A stretch of 64,000 nt of DNA, from the NCBI GenBank assembly GCA_963565915.1, contig OY751494.1, positions 2,728,001-2,792,000 of the forward strand, in the 5' to 3' direction. A program made the translations under genes and the position numbers. Position 1 is the stretch's first letter, and every line of letters begins with the position of its first letter. The notes under the pieces were generated by a model, which saw nothing but the letters and a program-made list of their open reading frames with translations, was not told where the DNA came from and made no database searches. The DNA comes from Entoloma clypeatum. Taxonomy: Eukaryota > Basidiomycota > Agaricomycetes > Agaricales > Entolomataceae. This document shows, in pieces, positions 7,537-34,820 of the stretch.

Positions 7537-7537
7537 T

Positions 7538-12655: not shown

Positions 12656-13775
12656 CTCCCCCGCTGGCTCTGACAAATCGGTATGAACAATTGCCTATAG
12701 ACTCTTACATACATAAGGACACTGTAAAATCATGGTTTCAGAAACTTTCAGATGCAGCAGTTACATACAATAAAATACTATTAGATAAACCTAGGAGAGA
12801 AAAACCAAAAAAAGATGAATCAGACTTAGATACGCTTGTAAACTATATCATTGGGGAGTCCTTGGAAACAAGGCTTGGTTCGGCCCTTATGGACGAATGC
12901 TTAATTCCCTGTTCAGACAAATCAGATAACTTAAATAGGCAAACGGACTCTATGGGGGAACCATCTTTTATTCGATCCGCTTCTTTGGAAAAGGAGCTTA
13001 TGATGAAAATCATGCTGGAAACATTGCAGGACAAACACACCTTTGATGTTGATGCATTATTGGACTCAGGGGCGACAGGGATGTTCATTGATCTGGACTT
13101 CACCAAGAGAAACAATATTAAATTAAGGGAACTACCTTTCCCCATTCGGGTCTACAATGTTGATGGCACGCTTAACCAAGGAGGTTCGATCACGCATGAG
13201 GCAGTCATGGCCGTGCAGTATAAGGGACACGTGGAAATAGCAGTGTTTGAAGCATGCAACCTAGGAAAAGCTAAAATTATTGTTGGGCACACTTGGCTGA
13301 AACGCCATAATCAAGAGATCGATTGGGAAAAAGCGGAAATTAAACTATCAAGATGTCCAGAAGAATGCGGCATGCGTCGAACACGTTATTTAAAGAAAAC
13401 TGCAAGAACCAGATGGGGTGGAAGAATTGAAGAGGTAGTAGAAGGAAATGAAGAAGAAGTGGAGGAAGAGGTGATCCACATGCTCAGAGCAGCTAAGGGA
13501 GAACCCTCAGATGAAGTGCCGGCGGAACAGGTTGTCCCCCAGAAATATCACAACTAGCTATCAGTCTTTGAAAAGAAAGCGTCGGAAAGGTTACCAGTCC
13601 GGAAACCATGGGATCATGCCATAGACCTAAAGCCAGATTTCGTACCAAAGAAGGCCAAAGTCTACCCCCTGTCACTGGATGAAAGGAAAGAAGTATCTGA
13701 ATTTGTGGATGATCAATTACGCAAAGGATATATTTGACCTACCAAGTCACCACAAACTTTGCCAGTATTCTTTAT
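12656..13775 (+). pseudogene. Gyp-B copy 1 protease and start of RT
   Basis: The -1 frame relative to gag runs through a long linker to the aspartic protease motif ALLDSGATGMFID (about 13055), then to the RT N-terminal part ([24 protein letters not shown]), stopping at the Gyp-C LTR. TAG at about 13555 and TGA at 13735-13737 interrupt it. Copy 2 has Tyr at the first site and CGA at the second. The break at 13775 falls within the first RT strand (PVFFI). Confidence 0.85.
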
Positions 13776-14488
13776 TGTTAAGTAGGTGAAAAGTCGGAGC
13801 TTCGTCGGAGTCCGTCGGAGGTCGGACGTAGGACTGAGACCGGAGCGGAACTCCGGAAATGCGGAGGAACGACGAAGGGGAGGGACGTGGCTTCAACGTA
13901 TGTGTTGCGCCGCCGTTTGTTGGATAAGGTGTCCCAATTTCAGGAGGTCGGAGGAGAGGTCGGAGGTGCGGAGGCCCTCAGAAAGATCTCGGTGAGAGAC
14001 ACGTTGACGTGGAAATGGTCGGACGACGTCGGAGTTGTGACTCGGACACAGTACTGAGCTCATCGAAGGGTAATGATGGAGGAAGAGCAGTAGATGAGGA
14101 TGTCGTCGGCGTATTGTACCACAGCAAGGATCTCTGGCATGAACGGGGAGTAGAGGAGTGAACTTTGTTGATATTCGAACTGAGGAACTACAGGTATGGT
14201 ACGAGCTTAAATACCTAAATGATATTACTTTACGGAGATGGTCGGAGTAGGTCCGGAGTTGTGGCGTAAGTTGCCAGCGACTGTAACAAACATCGGAGAT
14301 GTCGGTCAACGGACCATGCGGAAAAGGCGATGCATAAGTAAATGGGAATATGAATATGAAATGGATAAGGGCATGGAGTTATGAATATGAAATGCACGAT
14401 GGCAACGTGCGGAGACGCGGAGGTAACAGATGTCCGGAATGTCGGAGGACGATCGGAGTGGATCGGAGGTTCGGAGAGGAATATAACA
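13776..14488 (-). repeat. Gyp-C 3' LTR (713 bp)
   Basis: On the minus strand TGTTATATTC to TTAACA. It differs from the 5' LTR at only scattered positions, so the element is fairly young. Confidence 0.92.
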
Positions 14489-14607
14489 GTATTCCCCTCT
14501 TAGGTCTGACACCCATGGAAGACCATGAGAAAATAAACAAGGTCATGTGGTCTCGCTTATTTAACGGAGATGAGCGGCCCAAGGGTTTTCTTCCAGTTAC
14601 CACCAAC

Positions 14608-15478
14608 ATGCCCCAAGACTCAAACACACAACCCGCGGGCTCCAGCGCCAACCTCGACGACTCCGAAGAGGAGCTCCTGCACCATCTGGTGCAGATACGC
14701 AAGGAGAAGGAGGAGGCGGAGGCAAGGAAGAAGGCCGAGGCCGAGAGGAGGGCGAGGGAGGCAGAGGCGAAGAAGAAGGCAGAGGCGGAGGTGAAGGCGG
14801 AGGCGGAGGTGGAGAGGAAGAGGGCGAAGAAGGCGGGGAAACAGAGGGCGGAGAGCGGAGCGGAGGACTCGGAGGTCCAGGGGGAGGCGTGTCAGGCCTG
14901 TGCGCAGGCGAAGGTGGAGTGCAAGTGGCCATTGTGAGTACCCGCTTTTTCATCTTCTTTTTCTTACTGACAGTCTCCTTAGGCAGGGGAAGGGCACCGC
15001 ATGCCAGCGGTGCAAGGACGGCAAACGGGTATGCCTGAAGGCCAGCGAGACGCAGGCGAAGCAGAAACGGGGAAGGACGGAGGAAGCCATCACGGAGGTT
15101 GCGGGCCCGAGCGGGGCGAAAGGCTGCTGCGGCGCAGGGGTCGCGGAGGAGCTCCGGGGGCTCCGGGAGGCTCTGGAGGAGAGAGAGGAGCAGTCAGCGA
15201 GGGTCGGTTGGGCGCTGCTCCGGCAGCTTCAAATTATGAACAACCACCTCGCCTACCGGAACTTCCTTCTGGAGGCGGTGGCTCCGGAGTCGGAGACGGA
15301 GGATGGAGAAGAGGAAGAAGGAGAGGAAGAGGATGAGGAAAAAGACGAGGGGGAGGACGAGGGGTTGGCGGACGGGGAGCTTGCGGAGCTGCAAGCAGAG
15401 AAACAGGAGGCGGAGGGAGAAACGGAGGATGAGTCGGAGGACGACGGTCCGCCGGCCAAGAAGGCCAAAACCCAGTAG
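14608..15478 (+). CDS. antisense two-exon Zn2Cys6-like protein gene of Gyp-C
   Basis: Runs opposite to gag-pol, between pol and the 3' LTR; the stop codons of the two genes are 67 bp apart, tail to tail. Exons 14608-14933 and 14983-15478; the 49-nt intron 14934-14982 has GTGAGT, a TACTGAC branch site and TTAG. Spliced length is 273 residues. A Glu/Lys/Ala-rich coiled coil comes first. Next is a Cys6 module with spacing C-x2-C-x6-C-x10-C-x2-C-x6-C (CQAC...VEC, CQRC...RVC), the intron falling between Cys 3 and 4. A second helical region, a Glu/Asp-rich block and a basic tail (AKKAKTQ) follow. The spacing fits the fungal Zn2Cys6 DNA-binding family. I prefer ATG 14608 because TATTTAA lies at about 14558; ATG 14515 in the same frame is possible. 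A nuclear DNA-binding role is inferred. Confidence 0.82.
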
Positions 15479-15545
15479 CCCCTCCCCCCTCTAATTTTTT
15501 TGTTATTATTTTTTTTATTTTGCAATATCAATGTCTTGCGCGGTT

Positions 15546-18500
15546 CTATAGGCGTGATAAGGGGCCCGGTTTCTCCGGATACGCGGAGTGGAAGTCCGCG
15601 ACTAAGTCCGTCGCGTGTTCGAGTTCCATGGCGGGTAGCCAGGACTGTTCCTCATTGGTTCCTTCATAGCCTAGCCAACGGACTAGGTAGAGCAGTTTGC
15701 AAGAACGCCGACAATCCAGTTTGGTGTCAAGGATTTCGGCGATTTCATATTCCACTTCTCCTTCAACGTCGATCGGAGGAGGCGGAGTTACTGTCCGGTT
15801 TGGAATGTTGTTCGGAACAGATGGCTCCAGCATGGAGATGTGGAAAACGGGGTGAACACCGCGTATGGTGTCCAGAAGTCGGAGGGTGTAAGAGTGTGTA
15901 CCATTCCTGGCAAGGATGTCAAAGGGGCCAAGGTACTTTTCAGACAGCTTTTTGGAGGGTCGTGTAGTGCGGAAAAACTTAGCCTTCACAAAAGCTTGCT
16001 GTCCTACTTTGAGCGGAGGGGGCGGAGCACGCCGGAGATCGGCGGGGCCTTGATAACGTCGTTGGGCTTCTAGGATTGTAGATTTGAGTTCTTGGTGAAG
16101 CTCGTCCAGGTCTACAACGAATTGTCAGGCACGGGCGGATGCGAGGACGTGCTCCGGATGGACGGAGAGGTTCGGATGATGACCTTTATTGGCGAAGAAG
16201 GGCAAGATCCCGGTCGTAGCACTCGGAGCATTGTTGTACGCGAACTCCGCAAGTGGAAGTAGCTTGGACCAGTTGTCCTGCTGATAGTTGCAGAAGATGC
16301 GGAGGTACTGTTCCAAGGTTTGGTTGGTACGTTCGGTTTGACTGTCGCCTTCAGGATGGTAGCCAGAGGTGAAGTGCAGAGTCATGTTGAGGGCTTTTCC
16401 GAGGGAGCGGAAAAAGCGGGAGACGAACTCCGGGCCTCGGTCGGAGGTGACATGCTCTGGTACTCCGTGCTTGGAGAACACATGCAGGATGAACAAGGTG
16501 GCTAGATCTTCGGAGGTGCAGTGGATCGTAGTCGGAACAAAAATGCTTTGTTTTGTCATTCGGTCAACAATAACAAGGATTGCGTCAAAACCGCCGGAGG
16601 TCGGAAGTGTCTCGATGAAGTCCATGGATATGGAGTTCCACGGAAGGTTCAGAACTGGGAGTTGCTTCAGCATACCATAGGGCTTGTGGCATTGGGGTTT
16701 AGAGCGCACGCAAGTGGTGCAGGATTTGCAGTACTTTTTGACAAAGTCTCGAACACCAGGCCAAGTATAATCTCGTTGAATGAGACTAACTGTCTTGTTC
16801 TGTCCGGGGTGTCCGGAGAGAATATGATCATGCTTGTTGCGGAGGGTGCGGAGCCGGAGGTTATCGGAGTCGGGGACGTAAATGCGACCACTATGACGGA
16901 GGAAACCGTCGGAGTCTACGGACCAGTGCGGTTTGGGCTCCTTGAGATGGTCGGCATAGATTGGGTCAGATGGGAGTGAGCGGAGGATGTCAGAGTGCAA
17001 CTGTTCAATGTCCATTATGACTGTGGCGCGGAGAACAGGGGTGAACAACTCCGTAGCTCGGAGAGATGCGGACAGCTGTTCTTGGGAAAAGACTGGTCGG
17101 AAGTTGCTTGGATTTACCGACGCATAGTCGCTATTCCCCTCTTTGGGATAGACGTCCCATCGTCTAGTCAAAGAGTCCGGTTTGGTACCGAGACGTCGGG
17201 GGCGGAAGCGAATCAAGAGATTGAACTGAGAGAGGAACTTGGACCACCGGGCTTGTCGGCGGGTGAGAACCTTTGTAGTGGCGAAGTACTCCAGGTTCTT
17301 GTGGTCCGTGACAATATCGATCGGAGCAGCAGAGCCTTCAAGGTAATGTTGCCATACCTTGAATGCTTCATGGATAGCAAGTAACTCCTTGTCGTGTGTG
17401 TCGTAGTTGAGTTCCGGGGCGGTGAAGGTGCGGGAGTGGAACACTACTGGGTGTATCTCCTCGTTGGAGGTCCGGATGGACAAAATAGCACCAAGTGCGT
17501 AGTCGGAGGCGTCCATCTCGATGATAATAGGTCGATCAGGAATCCAATGAGTGAGGACCGGTGCTTTGGTAAAAGCGAGCTTCAACTCGTTGAACGCACT
17601 CCGTGCGGAGTCGGAGAAACGGAACAGAGTACCCTTCCGGGTGAGTCAGGTGAGCGGAACAACGATGTCCGAATAACCGTGAATGAAATGTCGATAGAAA
17701 TTCGCGAATCCAAGGAAAGACTGTACGTCCTTCACTTTTCGAGGTTCAGGCCACTCTTGAATAGTCTTCACCTTGGTTTCGGACATGCGGAGACCGGAGG
17801 GAGAAAGGATGAAACCAAGACATTCGACTGTGTTGACAGAAAATTCGCACTTGTCGGAGCAGACGTAAAGTCCGTTCTTGCGGAGACATCAGAAAACTTC
17901 CTTGACATCGTCGGGGTGCTTGGCGGGGTCGTCGGAGTAAATGAGAATGTCATCGAGGTAGACCACCACTGTAACATTGAGGAGGTCACTGAAGATATCA
18001 TTCACAAATCGCTGAAAAGCGGCAGGGGCGTTGGATAGTCCGTAACGAGTGCGGAAAGCGGTTTTCCATTCATCTCCGTCGGAAATGCGGACAAGATGAT
18101 ATGCATGCCGGAGATCGAGAGTGGTATAAACACACGCTTTTCCGGCAGTGGAAAGGAGGTCGGAGATGAGCGGAAGAGGGTATCGATCCTTCTTGGTAAC
18201 TTTGTTCAGGCCCCGATAGTCGACGCACAGGCGGAGGGAACCGTCCTTCTTTCGAACAAAGAGGACCAGAGCACCGTGCGGAGAGCGAGAGGGGCGAATG
18301 AAACCAATGGCCAAATGTTCGTCTATGAAGCTTTGCAGGGCAGATAGTTCGGATTGTGAAATGGAGTACATAGGGCCAATAGGGGGAGTCGATCCGTCTT
18401 CTAACTCGATGCGGAGGTCATACGGACGATGCGGAGCGAGGGTGTCTGCTTTTGTCTTGCTAAAAACATCGGCAAAATGGTGATATTCCTCTGGGATATG

Positions 18501-19210
18501 GGAGAGGTCCGGAGGTTCCTCGGACATAGAAACGGATTGGGCGGAGATCGTGTGGTCGGAAAGGTGAATTCGGAAAGATTGGGCACCCGGAAGTTTGCAA
18601 GCGTGCACAAATGCGGCTGCATTTATCAATGCAATATTCGGGACAACATCCGGAGTAGCAGCGGGTGTGCCGGAGTCGGAGGTCGGAGTATCGGGAGAGG
18701 TCTGCGGAGGTAGCGGAGCTAACCTGGCAGAAGATGTCAAGGTCGGAGACTCCTTCAAGAGCTGTGGACGGAAAGTAATACTGCCCAATACCCAGTCAAT
18801 CATAGGATTGTAGCGGGTGAGCCAGTTGTATCCAAGAACCATAGAACAGGAGGAATCGAGCGGAGTCACGTAGGCTGTAATGGCCATATATTCACCGGAG
18901 GAAAAGTATACAGGGAGATCAACCGCCTGAGTAATGACGGAGTTGGACGTTCCGTCAAATAATTTAAGTTCGATCGGAGGTATGGAGGTGAAAGGGAGTT
19001 TATAGGATGAAGCATAACGGGAGTCAATAAAACAATGAGTAGAGCCGGAGTCCACAAGGGCGGCTATCGGAGAAGAATCGGAGATAAGCGGAGATGTAAG
19101 TCGGACACGGAGGGAATTGGGATCGGAAAGAGCGGAAGCGTTGAGTAGAGCAGTAGTACAGATGGGTTCAACGCAGTCCTCAGGCCATACAGAGTCCTGT
19201 GGACTGCCCG
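15546..19210 (-). pseudogene. Gyp-C Pol, one frame with three TGA codons
   Basis: Read in the -1 frame after gag. Protease VDSGSTHCF is near 19045, RT catalytic YLDDILIYS near 17960. RNase H holds DASDYA and DHKNLEYF, and the integrase has H2C2 (HPGQNKT, CKSCTTC) and DDE (SMDFIET, SDRGPEF, TERTNQ). The chromodomain-like end (EYEIAEILDTK...WLPAMELEHA) stops at 15546. Stops are TGA at 17891-17889, 17648-17646 and 16127-16125. They all lie in the same frame and at least two occupy Arg positions, so each fits CGA to TGA. No frameshift is needed, so the copy died by point mutation at CpG. Confidence 0.92.
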
Positions 19211-20368
19211 CTAATTTTTTGTTTCGTCCGTGGTCTTGGCTTGGGCAGCGCGCGCCTTAGCCTTAGAGGCGGAGGACGAAGACTTCAGGCAATCTTTCGC
19301 GACGTGTCCAGCTTTGCCACAAAACATACAGAGGTTGTTGTCAAATCGGCGTTTGCGTTCCTCCGGAGTTAGCTTTCCATCTTTTCCGAGTTTGTCGGAG
19401 ATGTCAGACTTGGGAGCGGAGGAAGGCTTCGTCTGTTTGCCCTGGTTCTGTGTCTGCGGTTTGGCTTTGGAGTTTTTATCGGAGTTTGCGGAGGGGGTTT
19501 TAGCTTCGGATTTGTCAGATTTGGATGCGGACTTGTCGGAGCGGGACTTCTTGCGATGACGTTCCCAGTGGCGAGCATCAATAGTCTGTGCTAGCTCCCT
19601 AAGTGCTGGTAACGTGCTTGGCTTTGCTTGAGTCCCAAGGACATCTTTAATCCGCTCCGCCAACCTGGAGTAGTACCGGTGATGCAGGGCAGAGCTGTCC
19701 CAGTGTGTTTTGGCAGCAAGGCGTGTGAACTCGATATTATACTTGAGAATGTGTTGATTTTCGCGCATTTTGAGGTTGTCCAGAGAGTCGGCAGCATCCG
19801 CAACGGGGTCAATGACCCCGAATTCCATGCAGAGTGTGCGGAGGAATGCGGACCAATCTTCGTACCAGTCCGGGGGGTTATCCGGGTCCGGTTCGATGAT
19901 GAAATGCTCGAAATAATCAAGAGCTGTGCCTCGGAGGAAAGAGATGGCGAGAGTGATTTTGGCAGAGTCATCGTCATACTCGGAGTTGTCGCAGAAGAAC
20001 AATGTGCATTGGAGGATGAACTGGTTCAGTTTCCGGGGATCGGAACCGTCGAAGGTGTCCAGATCCTTAGCCTTTTTATGATGCTTGTGACCTTTGCTGT
20101 GTTTGAGTTCATTGGTCATTAAGAGGAAAGCATCCGCAAGGGCTTGTGGGCCGAAAATATTCTGAGGAGACGGGGGTGCGGATTCTATGGGGGAAGTGGG
20201 GATCGGAATATTATGCGGAGGTGTGATGGGCTGAAAACCCGGAGGTGTTGGAGTAGTGGGAGTTACGGGGGATAGTTCTGTTAAACGTTGTTCGACATTT
20301 TGTAGGACCTGTTGCCTAGAAGTGCCAGCTTCTGCGGCTTTTGCTGTCTTGGTGTTTCGGAGTGCCAT
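19211..20368 (-). CDS. Gyp-C Gag (385 aa)
   Basis: Structural protein of the virus-like particle. A Pro-rich N-terminal part precedes a capsid domain (DTFDGSDPRKLNQF, FLRGTALDYFE), then a Lys/Ser-rich stretch and one CCHC knuckle, CMFCGKAGHVAKDC, near the C-terminus. It starts at ATG 20368, about 40 nt inside the 5' LTR, and ends at TAG 19213-19211. It is intact. About 40-45% similar by eye to Gyp-E Gag (24357-25583). Confidence 0.93.
   Translation of the reverse strand: MALRNTKTAKAAEAGTSRQQVLQNVEQRLTELSPVTPTTPTPPGFQPITPPHNIPIPTSPIESAPPSPQNIFGPQALADAFLLMTNELKHSKGHKHHKKAKDLDTFDGSDPRKLNQFILQCTLFFCDNSEYDDDSAKITLAISFLRGTALDYFEHFIIEPDPDNPPDWYEDWSAFLRTLCMEFGVIDPVADAADSLDNLKMRENQHILKYNIEFTRLAAKTHWDSSALHHRYYSRLAERIKDVLGTQAKPSTLPALRELAQTIDARHWERHRKKSRSDKSASKSDKSEAKTPSANSDKNSKAKPQTQNQGKQTKPSSAPKSDISDKLGKDGKLTPEERKRRFDNNLCMFCGKAGHVAKDCLKSSSSASKAKARAAQAKTTDETKN
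19214..19220 (-). promoter_or_regulatory. predicted -1 frameshift site, heptamer AAAAAAT
   Basis: In gag frame it reads A-AAA-AAT followed directly by the stop TAG. The -1 frame is open from here without interruption into protease. The pattern X-XXY-YYZ is the classical slippery site. Gyp-E has AAAAAAA at the same place. Confidence 0.72.
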
Positions 20369-20395
20369 GACTAGCAGGAATCCAAAAACGGTTTG

Positions 20396-20406
20396 AGTTC
20401 GAATAT
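20396..20406 (-). promoter_or_regulatory. Gyp-C self-priming site (PBS)
   Basis: On the minus strand ATATTCGAACT, 2 nt after the 5' LTR. It is the exact reverse complement of AGTTCGAATAT in the LTR (20803-20813), as in Tf1-type self-primed elements. No tRNA 3'-end match (TGG...) is seen. Confidence 0.75.
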
Positions 20407-20408
20407 AC

Positions 20409-21120
20409 TGTTAAGTAGGTGAACGTCGGAGCTTCGTCGGAGTCCGTCGGAGGTCGGACGTAGGACTAGGACCAGAGCGGAACTCCGGAGATGCAGAGGA
20501 ACGACGAAGGGGAGGGACATGGCTTCAACGTATGTGTTGCGCTGCCGTTTGTTGGATAAGGTGTCCCAATTTCAGGAGGTCGGAGGAGAGGTCGGAGATG
20601 CGGAGGTTCTCGGAAAGATCTCGGTGAGAGACACGTTGACGTGGAAATGGTCGGACGACGTCGGAGTTGTGACTCGGACACAGTACTGAGCTCATCGAAG
20701 GGTAATGATGGAGGAAGAGCAGTAGATGAGGATGTCGTCGGCGTATTGTACCACAGCAAGGATCTCTGGCATGAACGGGGAGTAGAGGAGTGAACTTTGT
20801 CGATATTCGAACTGAGGAACTACAGGTATGGTACGAGCTTAAATACCTAAATGATATTACTTTACGGAGATGGTCGGAGTAGGTCCGGAGTTGTGGCGTA
20901 AGTTGCCAGCGACTGTAACGAACATCGGAGATGTCGGTCAACGGACCATGCGGAAAAGGCGATGCATAAGTAAACGGGAATATGAATATGAAATGGATAA
21001 GGGCATGGAGTTATGAATATGAAATGCACGATGGCAACGTGCGGAGACGCGGAGGTAACGGATGTCCAGAATGTCGGAGGACGATTGGAGTGGATCGGAG
21101 GTTCGGAGACGGATATAACA
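20409..21120 (-). repeat. Gyp-C 5' LTR (712 bp) with promoter
   Basis: Carries TATTTAA (20845-20839, minus strand), 32 nt before AGTTCGAATAT (20813-20803), the predicted transcript start. The TCCGA pentamer is repeated along the sense strand. The boundary with copia gag is exact. Confidence 0.93.
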
Positions 21121-22031: not shown

Positions 22032-22042
22032 TCACCCCCCCT

Positions 22043-23843: not shown

Positions 23844-24310
23844 TGTTACATTCCGATCCATTCCGACGATTTCCGACCAATCCCGACACCTCCGACATTT
23901 TGACTAATACTTATTATGCATACTTACTGTTATGAATCTCGTTACTACGTACATTACTTACATCCGATCATTTTACTTATGTTAAGAATCTCCGACAGCC
24001 ACTCGTTATCCGACTCCGACGAAGCCACACGTCCTCCGACATAGTATTTAAACTTATGTAGAATCGTGTATTAGCTTCAGTTTGAATATCAACTTAGATT
24101 CGACATCATACCTCCCGTCCTCTTTCCGACTCTTAACTTGAGTCCGACCTCCGACCTCCGATCCTCCGAAATAAGGACACCAACGTATTAGCGAGGGCGC
24201 AACACACAAGTTGAAGCCAAGTCCTTGCCCCTACGTTGCACGCGCTCCGACCTTCCGACCTTCCGACGCGTCCGACGTAGCTCCGACGTTTTGTCGATCA
24301 GTTCTTAACA
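23844..24310 (+). repeat. Gyp-E 5' LTR (467 bp)
   Basis: TGTTACATTCCG to GTTCTTAACA. By eye it holds 19 TCCGA on this strand and no TCGGA. Copies: 30441-30907, and a solo LTR at 47652-48140. Confidence 0.95.
24045..24089 (+). promoter_or_regulatory. Gyp-E promoter: TATTTAAA and predicted transcript start
   Basis: TATTTAAA (24045-24052) lies 34 nt before AGTTTGAATAT (24079-24089). The latter is complementary to the PBS, which fixes the expected RNA 5' end in a self-primed element. Confidence 0.7.
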
Positions 24311-24312
24311 GT

Positions 24313-24323
24313 ATATTCAAACT
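24313..24323 (+). promoter_or_regulatory. Gyp-E self-priming site (PBS)
   Basis: ATATTCAAACT, 2 nt after the LTR, is the exact reverse complement of AGTTTGAATAT at 24079-24089. Gyp-C has C:G where Gyp-E has T:A in the same pairing, a compensatory change. Confidence 0.76.
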
Positions 24324-24356
24324 GCCACTCGCTTATCCGTATTTCAAATTCCAGTT

Positions 24357-25583
24357 ATGGCAGCCCGCAACACACAGAACTCCCGCGCAGCAGCAGCAGC
24401 AGCGGAAGCTTCAAACCTGCAGGACACCAGGGCGACATTTCTACATACGTTCCAAGATATTCCCGCAGAAGAATCTGCACCCAAACCTGACCCCATATCT
24501 CCGACACCTCGTCTCCGAACACCTCAGACACAAGGACCTCCGATTCCTGAAGAATTCCGTCCTTTCAAATCGCCGACCTCTCCTTTTGACGATAACAATC
24601 CTTTCCGTCGCGAGCAAACTCCAAACCTCGCCGAAGCAATTATGCTTATGACGCAGGAGCTCCGACGTAGAGAGACTCCGAAAACTCCGAAAAAGAAATC
24701 GAAGGAACCCGACACTTTTGACGGTTCCGACTCTCGGAAACTCACCAGTTTCCTTGCACAATGCACACTATATTTCCGAAACAACCCCGCCTTTGACGAT
24801 GATGATAACAAAGTCAGTTTCGCTCTGTCGTACCTCCGAGGAACCGCGCTCGAATGGTTTGAGCCCACCCTCTTGGGAGAGTCCGACGACGACTCTGTCT
24901 GGTTGGACGACTGGTCCGCCTTTGTGCACATCCTCCGATCCGAATTCGGACCTATCGATCCGACCGGAGAAGCAGAGGATAGCCTGGATCACCTTCGGAT
25001 GCGCGACAATCAGAAGATCCTACGTTACAACATGGACTTCAAACGTCTTTCCGCTCGCACGCAGTGGGATGATGGCGCGCTCCGATATCGGTACTATACC
25101 GGTTTAGCGGAACGCATCAAGGACGTTTTGGGGACTTTTCCCAAACCAAAGACTCTCGCCGAGTTGAAAGTAATGGCCCATAACATTGATGCTCGCTACT
25201 GGGAACGTCAACGCGAGAAATCGCGCTCCTCCGACAAATCTACTCCGAAATCCGACAAATCTGACAAATCCGACAAAAAACAGACCCCCGCTTCATCATC
25301 CTCCAACAACAACTCCTCATCGTCTAAACCCAACTCGCAACAACAACAAAAATCGTCATCCACCTCTCCGAAATCCGCCCTCTCCGACAAACTTGGCAAA
25401 GATGGGAAATTAACTCCCCAAGAACGCCAACGACGATTTGACAATAATTTATGCATGTTTTGCGGCAACGTTGGTCATCGGGCTTCCGACTGCTCGAAGA
25501 AATCGTCTTCTAACGCCAAAGCAAAAGCCCGCGCGGCCCAAGCTGAGGACAAATCGGAGAAGACGACCGAGTCAAAAAAATAG
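24357..25583 (+). CDS. Gyp-E Gag (408 aa)
   Basis: Particle structural protein. An Ala-rich start precedes a capsid core (DTFDGSDSRKLTSF, LSYLRGTALEWFE, residues about 120-300), then a Ser/Lys/Asp-rich linker with Asn and Gln runs, and the CCHC knuckle CMFCGNVGHRASDC (about residues 364-377), which binds element RNA. ATG 24357 is 47 nt inside the LTR. The stop TAG at 25581 follows directly on the run of seven A used as a slip site. Confidence 0.95.
   Translation: MAARNTQNSRAAAAAAEASNLQDTRATFLHTFQDIPAEESAPKPDPISPTPRLRTPQTQGPPIPEEFRPFKSPTSPFDDNNPFRREQTPNLAEAIMLMTQELRRRETPKTPKKKSKEPDTFDGSDSRKLTSFLAQCTLYFRNNPAFDDDDNKVSFALSYLRGTALEWFEPTLLGESDDDSVWLDDWSAFVHILRSEFGPIDPTGEAEDSLDHLRMRDNQKILRYNMDFKRLSARTQWDDGALRYRYYTGLAERIKDVLGTFPKPKTLAELKVMAHNIDARYWERQREKSRSSDKSTPKSDKSDKSDKKQTPASSSSNNNSSSSKPNSQQQQKSSSTSPKSALSDKLGKDGKLTPQERQRRFDNNLCMFCGNVGHRASDCSKKSSSNAKAKARAAQAEDKSEKTTESKK
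25574..25580 (+). promoter_or_regulatory. predicted -1 frameshift site, heptamer AAAAAAA
   Basis: Gag frame reads A-AAA-AAA then TAG. The -1 frame (ATA GTA AGC...) is open and leads through GDCVDS into protease, matching EDCVEP at the same place in Gyp-C. I did not fold the RNA downstream. Confidence 0.73.
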
Positions 25584-28500
25584 TAAGCAGTCCTCAGATT
25601 CCAGCACGTACTGGGGATTGCGTTGACTCCTTTCGTGCACCTTTGGAAACCCTCCGACTCAATGTGTCCGCTCTCTCAAATCCGAACTCTCTATGTATTG
25701 ATTTGATATCTCCGACCTTTTCCGATTCTCTTCCGATAAAGACTCTTATTGATTCTGGTTCTACACATTGCTTCGCAGATACCAGATTTATTTCTTCTTT
25801 AAACTTATCTCCGACTCCGATTCCTTCACCTATGGTTTTGAAACTTTTTGACGGTTCTTCAAATACTTATATCACACAATCTATCGATCTTCCTCTCCGA
25901 TTTCCTTCCGGTGAATTTCTGACCGTCGCGTTTTACGTGACAACCCTCGATTCGTCTTGTAATTTGGTTCTAGGACACAACTGGCTCACCCGCTACAATC
26001 CGTTGATTGACTGGGTATTGGGCAGTATCTTATTCCGTTCTACGTTACCCGACACTCCGAGTCCGACTCCGACGTCGACTGCTGAGGCAGCTCCGCCACC
26101 TCTGCAGTGTCCGCCCTCTCCGATGGGCACCTCCGATCCGCTCACTCCGAACACCTCCGACCCGCCACAGATTACCATGGTCAATGCAGCCGCATATCTC
26201 CATGCATGTAAAGCTCCTGGGGCATACGCTTTCCGCGTTCACCTCTCCGACATCTCCGCCAATTCCGCGTCTGTCTCCGACGACGCTCCCGACCTCTCTG
26301 GCATACCCGAGGAATACCACGATTTTGCTGATGTATTCAGTAAGAAAAAAGCCGACACCCTTGCACCCCACCGACCGTACGACCTCAAAATCAATTTGGA
26401 GGAAGGTACTTCCCCTCCGATTGGTCCGATGTACTCACTCTCGCAATCCGAACTTGGATCCCTCCGAGACTTCATCGATGAGCACCTCAATATCGGTTTC
26501 ATCAAACCTTCTAGTTCACCTCACGGCGCTCCGATCCTCTTCGTCCGAAAGAAAGATGGATCACTCCGACTATGCGTCGACTACCGAGGCCTGAACAAAA
26601 TCACGAAGAAGGACCGATACCCACTTCCGCTCATCTCCGACCTCTTAGCCACTGCCGGAAAAGCACGCGTTTATACCACCATAGACCTCCGACACGCATA
26701 CCACCTAGTCCGCATCGCTGAAGGTGACGAATGGAAAACTGCATTCCGCACTCGCTATGGATCATTTGAATGGTTAGTCATGCCATTCGGATTGTCTAAC
26801 GCACCTGCAGCCTTTCAACGTTTTATGAACGACATCTTCTCTGACCTTCTGGACAACTGCGTTACCGTTTACCTCGACGACATCCTGATCTACTCCGACA
26901 ACCCCGAGGAACACAAAAAACATGTCCGAGAAGTCCTCCGACGACTCCGACAACATGGTCTTTACGCCCGCGCCGACAAGTGCGACTTCTCTGCCGAAAC
27001 TGTAGAATATCTTGGATTTATCCTTTCTCCCGACGGACTCAAAATGTCGGAAGCGAAAGTCAAGATTATTCAGGATTGGCCTGAACCGCGCAGAGTGAAG
27101 GACGTCCAGTCCTTTTTAGGTTTTGCAAACTTTTACCGATGTTTCATTCCATTCTATTCCAACATCACTATTCCACTCACTCGTTTAACCAGGAAACATG
27201 CCACTTGGCTGTTCTCCGACGACGCTCGAACCGCTTTTAATGACCTGAAAAAGGCATTTACCACCGCTCCGATCCTGACACACTGGATTCCCGACTCTCC
27301 GATAATTGTCGAAACCGACGCATCCGACTATGCCCTAGCGGCTATTCTGTCGATAGTCACCTCCGACAATGAAGTCCACCCCGTCGCATTCCATTCCCGC
27401 ACCTTCACGGCCCCCGAAGTAAACTATGACACCCACGATAAGGAACTTCTTGCCATCTACGAAGCGTTTAAAATTTGGCGCCATTACCTCGAAGGCTCCG
27501 GTACTCCGATTGACGTCGTTACCGACCACAAAAATCTCGAGTATTTTGCCACCACCAAAGTTCTTTCACGCCGACAAGTCCGATGGTCGGAATACCTTTC
27601 TCAGTTCAACCTCGTCATCCGATTCCGCCCCGGCCGATTGGGAACTAAACCTGACTCTCTAACTAGACGTTGGGATGTCTACCCTAAAGGGGGAAATAGC
27701 GACTACGTCGACATCAATCCGACCAACCTCCGACCAGTCTTTTCGCAAGAACAGCTCTCCGCTTCAGTTCGCGCGACTCAACTCCTTGAGCCCGTCCTCC
27801 GTGCAACCATTATCATGGACACAGAAAAGCTTCACCACGACATACTCACAGCACTCCCTTCCGACACTCTTTACAACACTCTTTCTAAAGATCCTAAACC
27901 CTGCTGGTCTCTCGACCCCGATGGTTTCCTCCGACATGACGATCGGATATACGTTCCCGACTCCGACGACCTCCGACTCCGAGTCCTACAGCACAAGCAC
28001 GATCATATGCTTGCTGGACACCCAGGTCAGAACAAGACACTCAGTCTCATTCAGCGTGATTATACCTGGCCCGGAATACGAGATTTCGTTCAACACTATT
28101 GCAAGTCATGTACCACTTGCATGCGATCGAAGCCACAAAGACACAAGCCTTACGGCCTACTCAAACAGCTTCCGATCCCCGAACGTCCTTGGAATTCTAT
28201 CTCAATGGATTTCATCGAGACCCTTCCGACCTCCGACAACTTTGATTCAATCCTTGTTATCGTTGACCGATTAACGAAACAAAGTATTTTCATTCCGACA
28301 ACAATTCACTGCACCTCCGAAGACCTTGCCGTACTCTTCGTATTGCATGTCTTCTCTAAACACGGCGTCCCCGAACATGTCACCTCCGACCGCGGCCCCG
28401 AATTCGTCTCCCGATTCTTCCGATCTCTCGGAAAGGCTCTAAACATGACCCTCCACTTCACCTCCGGTTACCACCCCGAAGGCGATGGCCAAACCGAACG

Positions 28501-29284
28501 CACTAACCAGACCCTCGAACAGTACTTGCGGATATTCTGCAACTACCAACAGGACAACTGGTCCGCTCTCCTTCCGATTGCGGAGTTCGCGTACAACAAC
28601 GCACCTAGTGCTACCACTGGCATATCTCCCTTCTTTGCTAACAAGGGTTACCATCCGAACATTACTGTTCACCCGGAACGAGACCTCGCCTCTTCCCGAG
28701 CCCGATCCTTCGTGACCGACTTAGACGAACTTCACCAAGAACTGAAAGCCACCATCTCCGACGCTCAACGACGTTACCAGAAGTCCTCCGACAATAATCG
28801 GATCGCACCTCCGACATTTTCTGTCGGACAACAGGTTTTCGTCAAAGCACAGTTCTTCCGCACAACACGCCCATCCAAGAAACTCTCAGAAAAGTACTTG
28901 GGACCATACGAGATCATTGCACAACCCGGCACACACTCCTTTACCCTCCGACTCCCCGACACATTCCGCGGTGTTCACCCCGTCTACCACGTCTCCATGC
29001 TTGAACCCGCAACTCCGAACACCATTCCGAATCGGACCCAACCTCCGCCTCCTCCGATTGACATTGACGGAGAACTTGAGTACGAGATCGCTGAAATAGT
29101 CGACTCAAAGATCGACCGACGACGTAGCTGCAAGCTACTATATTTCGTCCGTTGGTTAGGATATGAAAACACTGATGAAGAATTCTCTTGGCTACCAGCC
29201 AATGAATTGGAAAACGCCCCCGAGCTTGTCTCCGACTTTCACTCCGCTTATCCCGACAAACCGGGTCCGCTCACATCGCTCTGA
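25580..29284 (+). CDS. Gyp-E Pol (protease-RT-RNase H-integrase-chromodomain)
   Basis: Full-length Pol without a stop or frameshift, about 1234 residues from the slip site. Counting from codon 25643: protease IDSGSTHCF at 36-44; RT with YLDD at 410-413; RNase H from DASDYA (about 559) to DHKNLEYF (about 628). Integrase zinc site HPGQNKT...CKSCTTC is at about 790-830 and DDE at about 855, 915 and 951. The chromodomain-like C-terminus (EYEIAEIVDSK, WLGYENTDEEFSWLP) is at about 1146-1206. There is no ATG near the start of the frame, which fits translation as a Gag-Pol fusion. All catalytic motifs that I can see are kept, so activity is plausible. Confidence 0.95.
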   Translation: MVSSPQIPARTGDCVDSFRAPLETLRLNVSALSNPNSLCIDLISPTFSDSLPIKTLIDSGSTHCFADTRFISSLNLSPTPIPSPMVLKLFDGSSNTYITQSIDLPLRFPSGEFLTVAFYVTTLDSSCNLVLGHNWLTRYNPLIDWVLGSILFRSTLPDTPSPTPTSTAEAAPPPLQCPPSPMGTSDPLTPNTSDPPQITMVNAAAYLHACKAPGAYAFRVHLSDISANSASVSDDAPDLSGIPEEYHDFADVFSKKKADTLAPHRPYDLKINLEEGTSPPIGPMYSLSQSELGSLRDFIDEHLNIGFIKPSSSPHGAPILFVRKKDGSLRLCVDYRGLNKITKKDRYPLPLISDLLATAGKARVYTTIDLRHAYHLVRIAEGDEWKTAFRTRYGSFEWLVMPFGLSNAPAAFQRFMNDIFSDLLDNCVTVYLDDILIYSDNPEEHKKHVREVLRRLRQHGLYARADKCDFSAETVEYLGFILSPDGLKMSEAKVKIIQDWPEPRRVKDVQSFLGFANFYRCFIPFYSNITIPLTRLTRKHATWLFSDDARTAFNDLKKAFTTAPILTHWIPDSPIIVETDASDYALAAILSIVTSDNEVHPVAFHSRTFTAPEVNYDTHDKELLAIYEAFKIWRHYLEGSGTPIDVVTDHKNLEYFATTKVLSRRQVRWSEYLSQFNLVIRFRPGRLGTKPDSLTRRWDVYPKGGNSDYVDINPTNLRPVFSQEQLSASVRATQLLEPVLRATIIMDTEKLHHDILTALPSDTLYNTLSKDPKPCWSLDPDGFLRHDDRIYVPDSDDLRLRVLQHKHDHMLAGHPGQNKTLSLIQRDYTWPGIRDFVQHYCKSCTTCMRSKPQRHKPYGLLKQLPIPERPWNSISMDFIETLPTSDNFDSILVIVDRLTKQSIFIPTTIHCTSEDLAVLFVLHVFSKHGVPEHVTSDRGPEFVSRFFRSLGKALNMTLHFTSGYHPEGDGQTERTNQTLEQYLRIFCNYQQDNWSALLPIAEFAYNNAPSATTGISPFFANKGYHPNITVHPERDLASSRARSFVTDLDELHQELKATISDAQRRYQKSSDNNRIAPPTFSVGQQVFVKAQFFRTTRPSKKLSEKYLGPYEIIAQPGTHSFTLRLPDTFRGVHPVYHVSMLEPATPNTIPNRTQPPPPPIDIDGELEYEIAEIVDSKIDRRRSCKLLYFVRWLGYENTDEEFSWLPANELENAPELVSDFHSAYPDKPGPLTSL

Positions 29285-29311
29285 AACAAGAAAAAACAAG
29301 TACTATTCTAT

Positions 29312-30274
29312 CTACTTAGTACGTTGTTTCTTGTTCGACGGACCCTCCTCCTTGTCCGACTCCTCCTTACCCGACTCCGCCTTCTCCGACGGCTCCGAAA
29401 TCGACATGTCGGAATCGTCCGACAGCTCCGGCAACTCCAACCTTTTCCTATTCACCAGGTCCTTCCTAATCCTTCTCGCAATCCTCTTCTCCAGTCTCAA
29501 CTCGTGCGTCTCCTCCGCCGTATCCATCTCCGACTCCGACCCTTCCTCCGACACCTCCGGCGACTTGGGTTGGTACTCGGTGTTCACCGAGCCTTCAACT
29601 GCTGTTAGCAGTCGCCTCACCTGCCTCGTCTCCGCCAGTATCATCTTGAGGACACCCAAGACGGTGTCCTCCGACCCACTCTCCGACGGCATCTCCGACG
29701 CCTTTTTCTTCCCCTTAACCACCTTCACCGTTCTCTTCACCTCCTTCACCTCCGACTTCCCCTCCGACGCTCCGACCTCGCACTTCTTCTTGTCTTTGAT
29801 ACATCCTTTGCAGGACGACTTATTCCTAAAAAAAAACAAGGTTAAAACAGAAGAGACGAACCAAAGAGGGACTTACTCATCGCGTTCGCATTCGACGCCC
29901 TTCACAATGCACCTATCACAGGTGCCGACCCCGACCCCGACTCCCGACCCCTCTCCAACCATCGCCGACACTTCCTCCACCTTCCTCTTCTTCGTCGTCT
30001 TCTTCTTCTTCTCCGCCTGCGGCTCCCCCGACCCCTTGCTCGATGCGCCTTGCGCAGCGGCCACTTCATCGGCCCTTTTCTGAGCCGCCAGCTCCGACGC
30101 CCGACGCATCTCCTCCGCTAACCGCGCCGCCTCCGCAGCCCTCTCTTCCTCCGCTCTCCGCTCCTCCTCAGCCTTCCTCGCAGCCTCCTCCTCCGCTGCT
30201 CGCTTTTTCGCCTCCACCTCCGCGAGCTTAGCCTGCAGCGCCTCCATCTCCTTTTGAAAATCGGATGCCGACAT
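29312..30274 (-). CDS. antisense two-exon Zn2Cys6-like protein gene of Gyp-E
   Basis: Opposite strand to gag-pol; its stop is 27 bp from the pol stop, tail to tail, and its start is 166 bp from the 3' LTR. Exons 30274-29877 and 29825-29312; the 51-nt intron (29876-29826) has GTAAGT, a TTTTAAC branch-like site and a T-rich TTTAG end. Spliced product is 303 residues. An Ala/Glu/Arg coiled coil (about 5-75) is followed by a basic NLS-like run (KKKKTTKKRK) and a Cys6 module C-x2-C-x6-C-x8-C-x2-C-x6-C (CDRC...VEC, CKGC...KKC). A helical part, an acidic Ser-rich block and a basic tail (NKKQRTK) complete it. The intron interrupts the module at the same place and phase as in Gyp-C. The reading frame is intact and conserved in layout despite low sequence identity. 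Confidence 0.85.
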
Positions 30275-30440
30275 ATTGAGGTTTATTTTCGGAAGAGTTT
30301 AAAACGAAAAGAGAATGGGGGAACAAGAAGAAAAAACCACTCAGACGGTATTTTCAACCAACGCATCACATGACGCAGTTCACGCGCACCGACCACCTAG
30401 GTCCTTAGGCCTCATAGGTTCGGCCCTAAGGGGGAAATAC

Positions 30441-30907
30441 TGTTACATTCCGATCCATTCCGACGATTTCCGACCAATCCCGACACCTCCGACATTTTGA
30501 CTAATACTTATTATGCATACTTACTGTTATGAATCTCGTTACTACGTACATTACTTACATCCGATCATTTTACTTATGTTAAGAATCTCCGACAGCCACT
30601 CGTTATCCGACTCCGACGAAGCCACACGTCCTCCGACATAGTATTTAAACTTATGTAGAATCGTGTATTAGCTTCAGTTTGAATATCAACTTAGATTCGA
30701 CATCATACCTCCCGTCCTCTTTCCGACTCTTAACTTGAGTCCGACCTCCGACCTCCGATCCTCCGAAATAAGGACACCAACGTATTAGCGAGGGCGCAAC
30801 ACACAAGTTGAAGCCAAGTCCTTGCCCCTACGTTGCACGCGCTCCGACCTTCCGACCTTCCGACGCGTCCGACGTAGCTCCGACGTTTTGTCGATCAGTT
30901 CTTAACA
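30441..30907 (+). repeat. Gyp-E 3' LTR (467 bp)
   Basis: Preceded by CTAAGGGGGAAATAC, the likely polypurine tract. Same length as the 5' LTR and identical by eye. Confidence 0.95.
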
Positions 30908-33018
30908 CCGCTCCTTCAAGGAAGTGCCTCCATTCCTCCAATGCGCGGACCACTGCCAACATCTACTTGTCATAGATCTCGTAGTTGCCTTCCACCGGAC
31001 TAAGGCTTTTGGAATAGAATGCGACAGGGTGCCACTTACCGTCCTCTGTTGGTTGGGACAGTACTGCTCCGGTTGCAAAGTCCGAGCTATCTGCTTCTAT
31101 CCGCCACTTCTTTCCATGATCAGCTAAGACCAGGATCGGAGCGGATGTAATCCTCCGCTTCAACTCCGCAAATGCGGACACTTCTCCCTCCCTCCAAGAC
31201 CAGAGGTGCCCTTTCTTCGTGAGCTCAAAAAGAGGGCGCGCGATGTCCGAAAACCCTTCAATAAAACGGTGATAGAAGTTAGTGAATCCCAGAAAGGACT
31301 GTACTTCTCGGACGTTTGTCGGAGCAGGCCATTCCGCGACCCCCGCTACCTTCACCGGATCCATCTCTACGTGTCCTTGTTCAATAATAAGGCCTAGGTA
31401 TTCGATTGCGCGTTTGTTCAAACTCGCATTTCTCTGGTTTTAGATAGAGTTTGTGTTCGTGAAGTCGTTCCAGTACAATCCGTGTGACTCTTCGATGCTC
31501 CGCAAGGGTCTCCGTGAAGATGAGTATGTCGTCGAGGTAAACACAGACTACACCTTCAGTGATAAGGTCCTGAAAGATCTCGTTCATCATAGTCTGGAAT
31601 GTGGATGGACTATTAGTGAGGCCGAAGAACATCACCAATGGTTCATAGAGTCCGTGATTGGTCCGAAAAGCGGCCTTCCACTTGTCTCCGGGTTTTATCC
31701 GCACATTGTTGTAGCCCCAGCAGATGTCGAGCTTGGTGAAGTATTGAGCGCGTTGAAGTTTATTGATCAGTTCGGATATGAGCGGAAGCGGATACTTGTT
31801 TTTGATAGTTTTGGAATTGAGTGACTGGTAGTCTTGTACAAGACAAAGCGAGCCATCCTTCTTCTTGATGTAGAATACCGGAGATGCCACCGGAGACTTG
31901 GAAGGGCGGATCCGACCAGTTGCAAGGTTTTCCTCCAAAAACGCGTTGAGTTCCTTCTGTTTGTTCGGAGCAAGCGGATATACCTTACACCCCGCTGGAG
32001 AGGCGTCCGGAACAAGTTCAATGGTGTGGTCCCAAGTCCGCTCTTCCGGTAAGGTGTCGAAAGAGGTCTTTGAGAATATGTCTTCGAAGTCAAACAAGTG
32101 GTCTGGTACAGAGTCGCGGAAAGATTTAGGTTTTTGGTTACTGAGGAAGGCCTCCGATAGACGTTGCGAGATATTGGATGAAGCACGGATGAACTCCGCC
32201 TCCGCGGGTACTGTTCCGACAAAAAGGCGGTCTCCCTCCTCAAACTCATCCTCTTCCTCCTCGTTATCTGCTAACTCCTCCGCTTCCTCTCCTTCTGTGA
32301 CATCCTCCACCCATGGGCCACGGGGAGCCTCCTCCTCTAGACCGGACGTCGGAGTGGAACCCATCCGACAGGCTCGGATGCGGACTTGTTCAAACTTCTG
32401 CTCCTTCCGTTCTTGGGCTGCCTCCTGGTGGCATGTCCGACATCATGCAGGACACCGGCTCATCTTCACTTCCCCTGATGTCCAATCTACCTCGGGGTTG
32501 TGTTCCTTGAGCCAAGTGAAGCCTAACACGATTTCTTGTTTTCCCAAACTTGTGACTGCAAGCTGGGTCCGTTCTGAGTGATCCTGGTAGCGGAGCACTA
32601 CATCCAACACCTCCGTTATTGCTCCGGCCTCGTTTGGAGTTCTGTCGATGTTGTATACCGGAATTGCGTGTTGTAGTTTTCGAGTAGAGAGTCGATGTTT
32701 CTCAACCAGAGTGCGTTCAATAAACGACCCTGTTGCCCCGCTGTCGAGTAAGGCCTTTTGTGATAGTGTGTCTTTGGTGTCGGTAGTTTCAAGAACTATG
32801 TCTAGTTCAATAGAATTGTCGGAGTGAGCGGAGGCGAGGACATATTGTTTTGGAAGCCGACGCTCCCATTTAGAGAGGCGAAGGCGGATGGGATTTGCGG
32901 AGTTGGGTGCGACTATGGGATCGTTTGCAGGCTTAGAGATGGAGGGTATAGGATCATATTGTTCCATAAATAAGGCAGCATAACAATTTTTAGCAGACAA
33001 CGAGGGCGCACTGTTCAC
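30908..33018 (-). pseudogene. Gyp-D copy 1 Pol, N-terminal half (protease, RT, RNase H start)
   Basis: Protease ALLDSGATGSFIE near 32740; an acidic linker (EEEDEFEEGD) follows. The RT has NNVRIKPGDKWKAAF and the catalytic YLDD (about 31530). RNase H (DSSDFATGAVLS) is interrupted at 30908 by Gyp-E. Stops near 32450 and 30960, and a frameshift near 31400 (between LKPEKCEF and IEYLGLI), inactivate it. At the gag border the -1 frame is blocked by TGA overlapping the gag stop (TGAGTGA at 33021-33015); CGA at that place would open it without changing Gag. Confidence 0.88.
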
Positions 33019-34138
33019 TCACTGTGGGGAGGAAAATCCTCCTGTCCTCCCTCCGACTCCGCAGACTCCGTGGGCGGAACGGAGTTGCCTTCCGCTGCGT
33101 CCTTGACCACGAGTTGTTCCATAACAAACTCGTCCTGCTCCTCCATTGTCATGAAGCGAACATCGAAGCGAAGGGGGCATTCACGACTAAAGTGACCCAT
33201 TTTGTTACATCTGAAGCATGCATTGGCATTCTTGCCTTTGACACGTGAAGTATCAATGTCCATTGCATTGGGGTCCCTTGTCAGCAGAGCTGTGCGTGGA
33301 GTGAATGGACTGTAGGGGCGAGGGAATACTGAGGTGCCAGGTACTCTTGGTCCGACAACATTGCGGAAGGCGGAGGTAGGGGTCGGAGCAGTGGCTTTGA
33401 AGGCTTTGTTGGCAATCCTATTGTCGTCATTGACTCGTGCTGCAGAGTACTACTCATCGGGGTTGTCATCCGCAGGTCGTCCGTGGGTCAGGGTGGCAAT
33501 CTCGTTCTGAATGTCGGAACGGAGACCATGGCAGAATTTGAGTACGATGTTGGTATCCTCCTGATAGCCTGCTTTGTCAATGTAGTCTTTGAACTCGTCA
33601 ATATAGGTCTCGACATCCCGTTGACCTTGATAATAGGATTCTCCTTCGAGGATCAGTCTCACGTCCTGTTCCTCATTCTTCGGAGTGAACTCCGCTGTAA
33701 AGACTGCACAGAAGTCCACCCAACTCCGATAAGGCGGAGCACCGGTCCTCCGCTCCTGTCGGATAATGCAATCCGCAAAGCGTGCTGCACGTCCACTCTT
33801 CATGAAAGATAAAGCCCAATAAATTTTAGCATGGTCGTCTGCGAACTGTTCCGGAGCCAGCCCCATAAACAATTCACAGGAATTTAGAAAGGTCCAGCCA
33901 TTTGCGCGCGATCCATCAAAGTCCGACGGATTGGCAGGTTTTGCTCGACGCACGCCCGGATGGCCGGAGCGAGCGGAGCGGGTATAATAGCAGGTGCGGG
34001 GATAGGTGGCGGAGCTGGGGCAGGAATTGCGTTGAAGGCGAGGAGGAGTTGGTCAAGTTGAGTCGAGATATCAGCGAGAGTTTGACGTTGTTTCTGGAAC
34101 TCGTGCTCGAGCTGTTCAAGGCGATTGGGGTTGTCCAT
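33015..34138 (-). pseudogene. Gyp-D copy 1 gag
   Basis: Coiled-coil N-terminus (LEQLEHEFQKQRQTL) and Pro/Ala stretch. Capsid domain (SDFDGSRANGWTFLN, YWALSFMKSGRAARF), then a knuckle CFRCNKMGHFSREC (about 33210) and an acidic end. A single-base frameshift lies near 33950 and a TAG near 33452 where TGG is expected. It is the only full Gyp-D gag in the window. Confidence 0.87.
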
Positions 34139-34287
34139 TACTATGCGCGGAGCAGAATCACCAGTTACGGAGAGGTAGTTAGAAGAACTGGAAGGGGTGT
34201 GAGATGTATCGGAGTCGGACGCGGACGAAGCTGCTCCGAAGCGTGGAATCGTGACAACAATGCAATCGGACCCGGTCCAATTAGAAG

Positions 34288-34297
34288 AGAACTTTCT
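34288..34297 (-). promoter_or_regulatory. Gyp-D self-priming site (PBS)
   Basis: Minus strand AGAAAGTTCT, 2 nt inside the 5' LTR, is exactly complementary to AGAACTTTCT in the LTR (34427-34418). Confidence 0.72.
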
Positions 34298-34299
34298 AC

Positions 34300-34733: not shown

Positions 34734-34820
34734 GTACGACTTCATTTTCTCGGCCCAACTCTGGTAGTCGATGCCGTTGAAGATGATGATGGAGTCGAGG
34801 GCGGAGCGAGAGGTAGACAT
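34734..34820 (-). pseudogene. Cop copy 2 gag, N-terminal codons
   Basis: ATG at 34820 followed by MSTSRSALDSIII...YQSWAEKMKSY, then the Gyp-D insertion. Continues in frame at 21597 when Gyp-D is removed. Copy 3 has stop codons where this copy keeps Trp. Confidence 0.9.

Follow-up and report, generated by a model that had tools for sequence, protein, structure and literature searches.

A spliced antisense gene for a Zn2Cys6-like protein in two sister families of LTR elements

The antisense gene brtn was reportedly described by Zhao et al. in Virology in 2011. It occurs in Boty-like Ty3 elements of Botrytis cinerea (PMC8365987, PMC7264820) and, in the description cited, it is an extra gene of a fungal LTR element that runs antisense to gag-pol between pol and the 3' LTR, as does the gene reported here (PMC7264820). 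Its host differs in being an ascomycete, and brtn enters our comparison by its description rather than by its sequence. In plants, genes of the same placement (aORF-3R), namely Grande gene23, RIRE2, Retand TRP28 and PvRetro13 ORF2, are kept in families, and some of their products are nuclear or predicted to bind DNA (PMC7264820, PMC11963269). The accounts cited describe aORF-3R products with no clear similarity to other proteins (PMC7264820), report no Cys6 module in them and present Retand as a non-chromovirus (PMC7264820, PMC11963269). In the same accounts the antisense genes of LTR retrotransposons are known, their functions are not (PMC7264820, PMC11963269).

The stretch of DNA analysed here, 64 kb in its whole length (the window), holds two LTR elements, Gyp-E and Gyp-C. 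Each has one gene that is read antisense to gag-pol and lies past the pol stop and before the 3' LTR, at the aORF-3R position. The sequence-only reading had placed such a gene in both elements, and we recovered its coordinates exactly:

23844-30907, plus strand: Gyp-E, LTR element
23844..24310, plus strand: Gyp-E 5' LTR, 467 nt
24309..25583, plus strand: Gyp-E gag frame, stop to stop, with a CCHC zinc knuckle
25547..29284, plus strand: Gyp-E pol frame, 1245 aa, with RT, RNase H, integrase and chromodomain
29312-30274, minus strand: Gyp-E antisense gene, two exons, product of 303 aa
29877..30274, minus strand: its exon 1, 398 nt, with the charged helix, the basic stretch KKKKTTKKRK and Cys1-Cys3
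29826..29876, minus strand: its intron, 51 nt, phase 2, between Cys3 and Cys4, GTAAGT..TTTTAG
29312..29825, minus strand: its exon 2, 514 nt including the stop, with Cys4-Cys6, a helix, acidic stretches and a basic C-terminus
29780..29920, minus strand: its Cys6 module, the halves flanking the intron
30367..30373, minus strand: TCATGTG word upstream of the antisense ATG, candidate antisense promoter element
30441..30907, plus strand: Gyp-E 3' LTR, 467 nt, 100% identical to the 5' LTR
~13773-21120, minus strand: Gyp-C, LTR element
13773..14488, minus strand: Gyp-C 3' LTR, ~97% identical to its partner at 20406-21120 (BLAST ends, approximate)
14543..14549, plus strand: TCATGTG word upstream of the Gyp-C antisense ATG, kept in copies
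14608-15478, plus strand: Gyp-C antisense gene, two exons, product of 273 aa
14608..14933, plus strand: its exon 1, 326 nt
14934..14982, plus strand: its intron, 49 nt, phase 2, GTGAGT..CCTTAG
14983..15478, plus strand: its exon 2, 496 nt including the stop
14890..15034, plus strand: its Cys6 module, the halves flanking the intron
16125..20410, minus strand: Gyp-C gag-pol in pieces (frames 16125-17645, 17889-19256 and 19211-20410)

Gyp-E is a recent insertion, because its two LTRs are identical throughout. Its pol carries the C-terminal chromodomain of a chromovirus (PF00385, E=2.6e-7); the chromodomain scan covered the Gyp-E pol, and the RNase H-integrase piece of Gyp-C is 81% identical to that of Gyp-E. 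Gyp-E apparently sits within an element of another family, D (window 21549-34865), whose pol pieces at 22046-23767 and from 30966 up (minus strand) flank it and were read as one pol in two parts. The 5-mers flanking Gyp-E, CTGCT and CCGCT, differ by one base.

In Gyp-E the antisense gene and pol do not overlap, their stop codons being 27 nt apart. The two exons and the intron of about 50 nt, in the same phase and between Cys 3 and Cys 4, had been proposed from the letters of the window and were found as such: both introns are in phase 2 and begin 11 nt past the Cys3 codon. The Cys spacing is C-x2-C-x6-C-x8-C-x2-C-x6-C in Gyp-E, with x10 replacing x8 in Gyp-C, as had also been read before. Without splicing, both window copies run into a stop at the first codon boundary within the intron. 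A scan of both strands of the window for spliced Cys6 modules returned the Gyp-E and Gyp-C sites only, with one alternative splice at Gyp-C.

The 60-Mb genome (20 contigs) was then searched with each antisense gene, which gave at least 40 scored places for each, plus at least four end fragments for C. The E set comprised the window copy and 39 other scored places (n=40). The C set comprised the window copy and 27 of 39 others (n=28) and is biased toward reference-like copies, because the 12 lowest-ranked places were left out. The antisense gene was found in all copies examined, in sets that were retrieved by the gene itself, so that copies without it would escape. The frame was intact in 33 of the 40 E copies and in 20 of the 28 C copies, and absence of the frame from other family members, a result that would have spoken against the sequence-only reading, thus did not occur. 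The seven broken E copies lacked the start, changed frame, stopped early or had a truncated match; in the eight broken C copies the frame changed, a stop came early or the match broke off before its end. TG, CA or TA stood at 8-14% of the CpG sites of E and at 20-23% of those of C (copies among L002-L068), and the stops within the integrase piece of older E copies were mostly TGA; such C-to-T type CpG decay and TGA stops would be expected of CpG methylation.

The splice sites were kept throughout both sets. The E intron measured 47-57 nt, with GT-AG ends in 39 copies and GC-AG in one, and the donor GTAAGT in 38/40; the C intron measured 46-64 nt, with GTGAGT..CCTTAG in 28/28. The acceptor AG was present in all E and C copies. 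Where exon lengths differed from the window copy, the difference was a multiple of three in 38 of 41 cases for E and 19 of 24 for C, against 24 of 39 and 3 of 6 for the introns. This contrast between exons and introns stands out in E but is slight in C, in which few introns vary in length. No intronless copy was found genome-wide within 3 mismatches of the 28-nt splice junction, so there is no retrocopy to prove splicing. An intron in this position survives retrotransposition because the gene is antisense and the intron is never spliced from the genomic RNA. Its survival requires that the RNA being copied is of the opposite strand, and the protein must therefore come from a separate antisense transcript.

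Substitution patterns (Nei-Gojobori, all pairs) gave a dN/dS of 0.295 for E and 0.264 for C in the proposed frame, compared to 0.91-1.51 in four other frames and 0.39 and 0.40 in the antiparallel frame with coinciding third positions. Restricted to intact distinct copies, dN/dS was 0.277 for E (30 sequences, codon bootstrap 0.193-0.400) and 0.267 for C (20 sequences, 0.199-0.353), the bootstrap understating the uncertainty from shared history because pairs of related copies are not independent. The ratio fell to 0.083 (E) and 0.117 (C) in the Cys6 module, and all six module cysteines were kept in 40/40 E and 28/28 C copies. The neutral dN/dS that would have undone the sequence-only reading was thus not seen (~0.28 in E, ~0.27 in C). 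The antisense frame is under purifying selection, with the Cys module the most constrained part, and the antisense gene of Gyp-E and Gyp-C is a genuine protein-coding gene, under selection and with a frame that needs splicing.

By composition, the antisense protein consists of a charged helix, a basic stretch, the Cys6 module, a second basic stretch, a hydrophobic helix, acidic stretches and a basic tail. The order proposed earlier (coiled coil, Cys6, helix, acidic block, basic tail) holds as composition only, with a charged helix as its first part. The protein has exactly 6 cysteines in 303 aa in E and 8 in 273 aa in C. Zn2Cys6 domains range over C-x2-C-x6-C-x(5-12)-C-x2-C-x(6-8)-C, and the spacing of both modules, x8 in E and x10 in C, is of the Gal4 type (PF00172). 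The modules scored 13.4 and 14.1 bits, below the Pfam Zn_clus gathering cut-off of 21 bits; four of the seven module variants matched Zn_clus (best E=0.031, below the cut-off), and the Pfam scan gave no Zn_clus match in the whole E and C proteins and no Fungal_trans domain. Two other Pfam matches of C beat Zn_clus, yet stayed below their own cut-offs: GP67 (E=0.0002), covering the acidic stretch when the whole protein was scanned, and ADD_DNMT3 (E=0.005; 0.0039 in 1/7 variants) in the module. Against the PDB, at E up to 10, the joint module profile had just three matches, Lac9 (0.18), C27B12.11c (1.3) and Pho7 (1.6), which we take to be zinc-cluster (Zn2Cys6) factors; the E module alone matched a single entry, GAL4, at a non-significant E of 1.5, the C module alone matched none, and no PDB match for the module was significant (best E=0.18).

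The lysines by which Gal4 reads CGG are only partly matched, with a single Lys in the Cys2-Cys3 interval of either window copy, not at the same position. In Gal4 the main charged helix is not known to lie before Cys6; in the antisense protein it does, which counts against a Gal4-type reading. The Gal4-type identity proposed by the sequence-only reading is only partly supported: the spacing agrees and the weak structure matches point to zinc-cluster factors, but the score falls short of the Pfam cut-off. The product is best termed Zn2Cys6-like, and it is probably a zinc-cluster nuclear protein, with predicted zinc binding and nuclear location. Elsewhere in the genome, two intronless frames with a Zn_clus module (L099 3516-4328, plus strand, E 0.009; L100 3225-4010, minus strand, E 0.024) scored barely above the Pfam cut-off, with near-equal scores at other genomic places and, by eye, transposase-like frames nearby; they are perhaps a second mobile-associated zinc-cluster gene.

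A 5.8-billion-protein database gave no relatives of the E protein (7994 candidates sharing the most words were scored) and none of the C protein (residues 86-220). The same database includes chromovirus RTs of Trametes, Cyclocybe, Pisolithus, Lentinula and Armillaria, the genera in which RT relatives at 71-75% were found. Viral contigs scanned with the RT piece, singly and as an alignment, gave no relative.

The integrase-region piece of the E pol is 81-83% identical to C-type copies, so E and C are sister families and their gene is one shared antisense gene, not two independent cases. The presence of the gene in two families, as stated earlier, is correct; the independence that this suggested was overstated. 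BLASTP found no match between the E and C antisense proteins, and in a profile comparison of this single pair only the module aligned (probability 6%, E 0.006). In a global alignment 75 of 262 positions were identical (29%), with a score of 116.5 against a mean of 55.9 (sd 16.7, maximum 109.5) for 200 shuffles. The same place, the same intron position and phase, the same spacing bar x8/x10 and the word TCATGTG point to a common origin and rapid divergence since. Identity between E and C falls from 81% in the integrase region of pol to 49% in gag and 29% in the antisense protein (global), a gradient that would be expected for a fast-evolving self-directed regulator.

No Cys6 module was found in a D-family copy (L101; 446-nt LTRs, a 1356-aa pol frame and the second LTR abutting pol) or in the one G-family copy (L102; 1225-aa pol). 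None of the 30 loci from an SH3_Tf2-1 search (three clusters of 26, 3 and 1), each covering ~1.5 kb beyond the match, contained a spliced Cys6 module. Among the Ty3 families looked at (E, C, D and G), the antisense gene is a trait of the E/C lineage. The G-family copy has a sense-strand frame of 156 aa between pol and the 3' LTR (5429-5896, plus strand).

TCATGTG stands upstream of the antisense ATG in 39/39 E copies, one of the 40 being left out because its match ends short of the gene start, and in 28/28 C copies. The word, kept in the copies examined, makes the gap from the antisense ATG to the 3' LTR a candidate site for an internal promoter. We give about an even chance to the reading in which this antisense accessory gene is expressed as a spliced transcript and yields a zinc-cluster-like nuclear protein that binds nucleic acid of its own element and regulates it. 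Antisense transcription would probably start from a promoter in the short gap between the antisense ATG and the 3' LTR, and translation of the spliced transcript would yield a small zinc-cluster-like protein that has a Cys6 module and basic stretches. This protein would most likely go to the nucleus, bind nucleic acid of its own element and regulate one of its steps, be it transcription, chromatin state or replication. For the gene we infer that it is transcribed and spliced in vivo; for its product we infer zinc and DNA binding, a nuclear location, a target and an effect. An element-specific nucleic-acid-binding regulator fits the data because the module is constrained and the rest of the protein changes fast.

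The motif CTCCGA is dense and strand-oriented throughout the LTRs and coding regions of both elements (23844-30907 and 13773-21120). The window holds 142 CTCCGAC sites where 9.3 (sd 3.1) would be expected. On the sense strand CTCCGA was counted 76 times in E (19.4 expected under a strand-specific second-order model) and 40 times in C (13.7 expected under the same model), with the complement once in each. Synonymous shuffles that fixed the protein and the codon use gave 8.4 (sd 2.6) compared to 42 observed in E pol and 1.9 (sd 1.3) compared to 13 in E gag; the excess was weaker in the three C pieces (9, 8 and 6 vs 4.2, 2.6 and 2.3). CTCCG sites occupy all three codon phases, and adjacent motif sites showed, by eye, no single sharp spacing preference. 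From E to C, 19 of 39 aligned CTCCG sites were kept, against 22.5% of all 5-mers; other CCG-containing 5-mers were kept at 58 of 204 sites. E carries chiefly CTCCGA, C CTCCGC as well. Family D, without the gene, showed a weaker CTCCG enrichment on both strands (47 and 28), and the motif as a mark of gene-bearing families alone was ruled out by this family. The enrichment was absent from the Copia pieces and the G element (L102 1-6304, 6 sites on the sense and 4 on the other strand); a D-like neighbour in the same locus (6305-8001) had 9 and 11.

The one-sided orientation of the motif suggests an RNA signal better than a DNA target. It is possible, though unlikely, that the protein acts on RNA or particles, as a Rev-like exporter or a Gag helper for genomic RNA, perhaps via CUCCGA on the sense strand. 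Such a signal would suit the strand counts (76 vs 1 and 40 vs 1) and the excess over synonymous shuffles (42 vs 8.4 in E pol), and the basic stretches could bind RNA. However, nothing connects the motif with the antisense protein, the CCHC knuckle of Gag is a likelier reader of such a signal, and family D is CTCCG-enriched without the gene, though on both strands.

A sequence-specific anti-silencing factor, comparable to VANC, appears rather unlikely; it would bind motifs amassed in its own element and lift silencing, its targets co-evolving. The protein diverges fast relative to pol, the motif has built up element-wide in a form that differs by family (CTCCGA in E, also CTCCGC in C) and the copies show C-to-T type CpG decay, all of which would agree with such a factor. 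Nevertheless, the decay of CpGs within the motif keeps pace with that of matched CpGs elsewhere, with no protection in E (150/1772 inside vs 137/1463 outside, Fisher p 0.35) or in C (216/1071 vs 308/1415, p 0.34). One-sided sites are unnecessary for a DNA-binding factor, and family D has the motif without the gene. In the account cited (PMC5735166), VANC targets are non-coding tandem repeats, whereas CTCCGA is dispersed and also coding.

TCGGAG, the complement of the motif, was suggested as the target of the protein because it contains CGG, and CGG is the half-site of Gal4-type proteins. We consider it quite improbable that the Cys6 protein is a self-recognition factor that reads its family's own oriented CTCCGA/TCGGAG word, in LTRs and at synonymous coding positions, and co-evolves with it between the sister families. 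The presumed link of the motif to the protein is partly contradicted by family D and by the lack of CpG protection. Strand-oriented AGTACC was seen in two Copia pol pieces (54571-56901, plus strand, 7 vs 1.2; 5050-7623, minus strand, 7 vs 1.1; synonymous shuffles), which may mean that oriented words specific to a family are more widespread here. In window positions 35000-41500 the palindrome TCGCGA is in excess, with 16 sites, or 32 when both strands are counted as they are in the expectation of 3.8.

Two further readings would make the antisense frame something other than an accessory gene, and both together are very unlikely. A recently captured host passenger gene, now decaying, might be supposed from the Zn_clus genes present in other repeats of the genome, but purifying selection in two sister families speaks against it. 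Alternatively, the true gene would be the sense-strand frame at 29160-30083 (plus strand), which in the window copy runs for 307 aa without a stop. The opposite-strand frames, however, never fell below the antisense frame in dN/dS, with 0.39-0.40 where third positions coincide and 1.12-1.51 otherwise, and a sense frame through the intron would shift, because 15 of the 39 other E introns differ in length by a non-multiple of three. That the antisense RNA is what matters and its open frame is incidental, as might be imagined from the proposal that antisense transcripts of LTR elements form dsRNA feeding silencing (PMC7264820), is scarcely credible given a dN/dS of ~0.27, exon indels mostly in threes, invariant cysteines and kept splice sites.

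The accessory gene of E and C is an antisense gene of an LTR element that clearly bears the marks of coding sequence; its intron determines from which strand it is expressed, and its domain hints at an activity open to testing. If its product is a DNA-binding regulator, these fungal LTR elements would carry a transcription or chromatin factor of their own, and the sister families E and C would permit a direct test of co-evolution between factor and DNA. For annotation, such products may be catalogued as host zinc-cluster proteins. Among the matches listed from titles and abstract openings of open-licence PMC papers, subscription papers being outside this scope, there was no Cys6 or Zn2Cys6 antisense gene in an LTR element.

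HBZ of HTLV-1 is a bZIP protein, whereas the E/C antisense product has a Cys6 module. Like the E/C gene, HBZ and other retroviral antisense genes are described as protein genes antisense to the element near the 3' LTR (PMC10186651, PMC7264820); the antisense promoter of HTLV is placed within the 3' LTR (PMC7264820), whereas the candidate word of Gyp-E and Gyp-C lies in the internal region. VANC of the Arabidopsis VANDAL elements is likewise presented as element-encoded and fast-evolving, with short motifs that amass in the element, but it belongs to a DNA transposon, its targets are non-coding tandem repeats and its demethylation was shown by experiment (PMC5735166, PMC10398659). With Gal4-type Zn2Cys6 proteins (PF00172) the product shares the Cys spacing and its weak best matches, Lac9, Pho7 and GAL4; it differs from them in scoring below the Pfam cut-off, in having no Fungal_trans domain and in its main charged helix, which precedes the module. 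Antisense genes between pol and the 3' LTR are already known from Boty (brtn), Grande and Retand, and the spliced Cys6 gene of Gyp-E and Gyp-C joins them.
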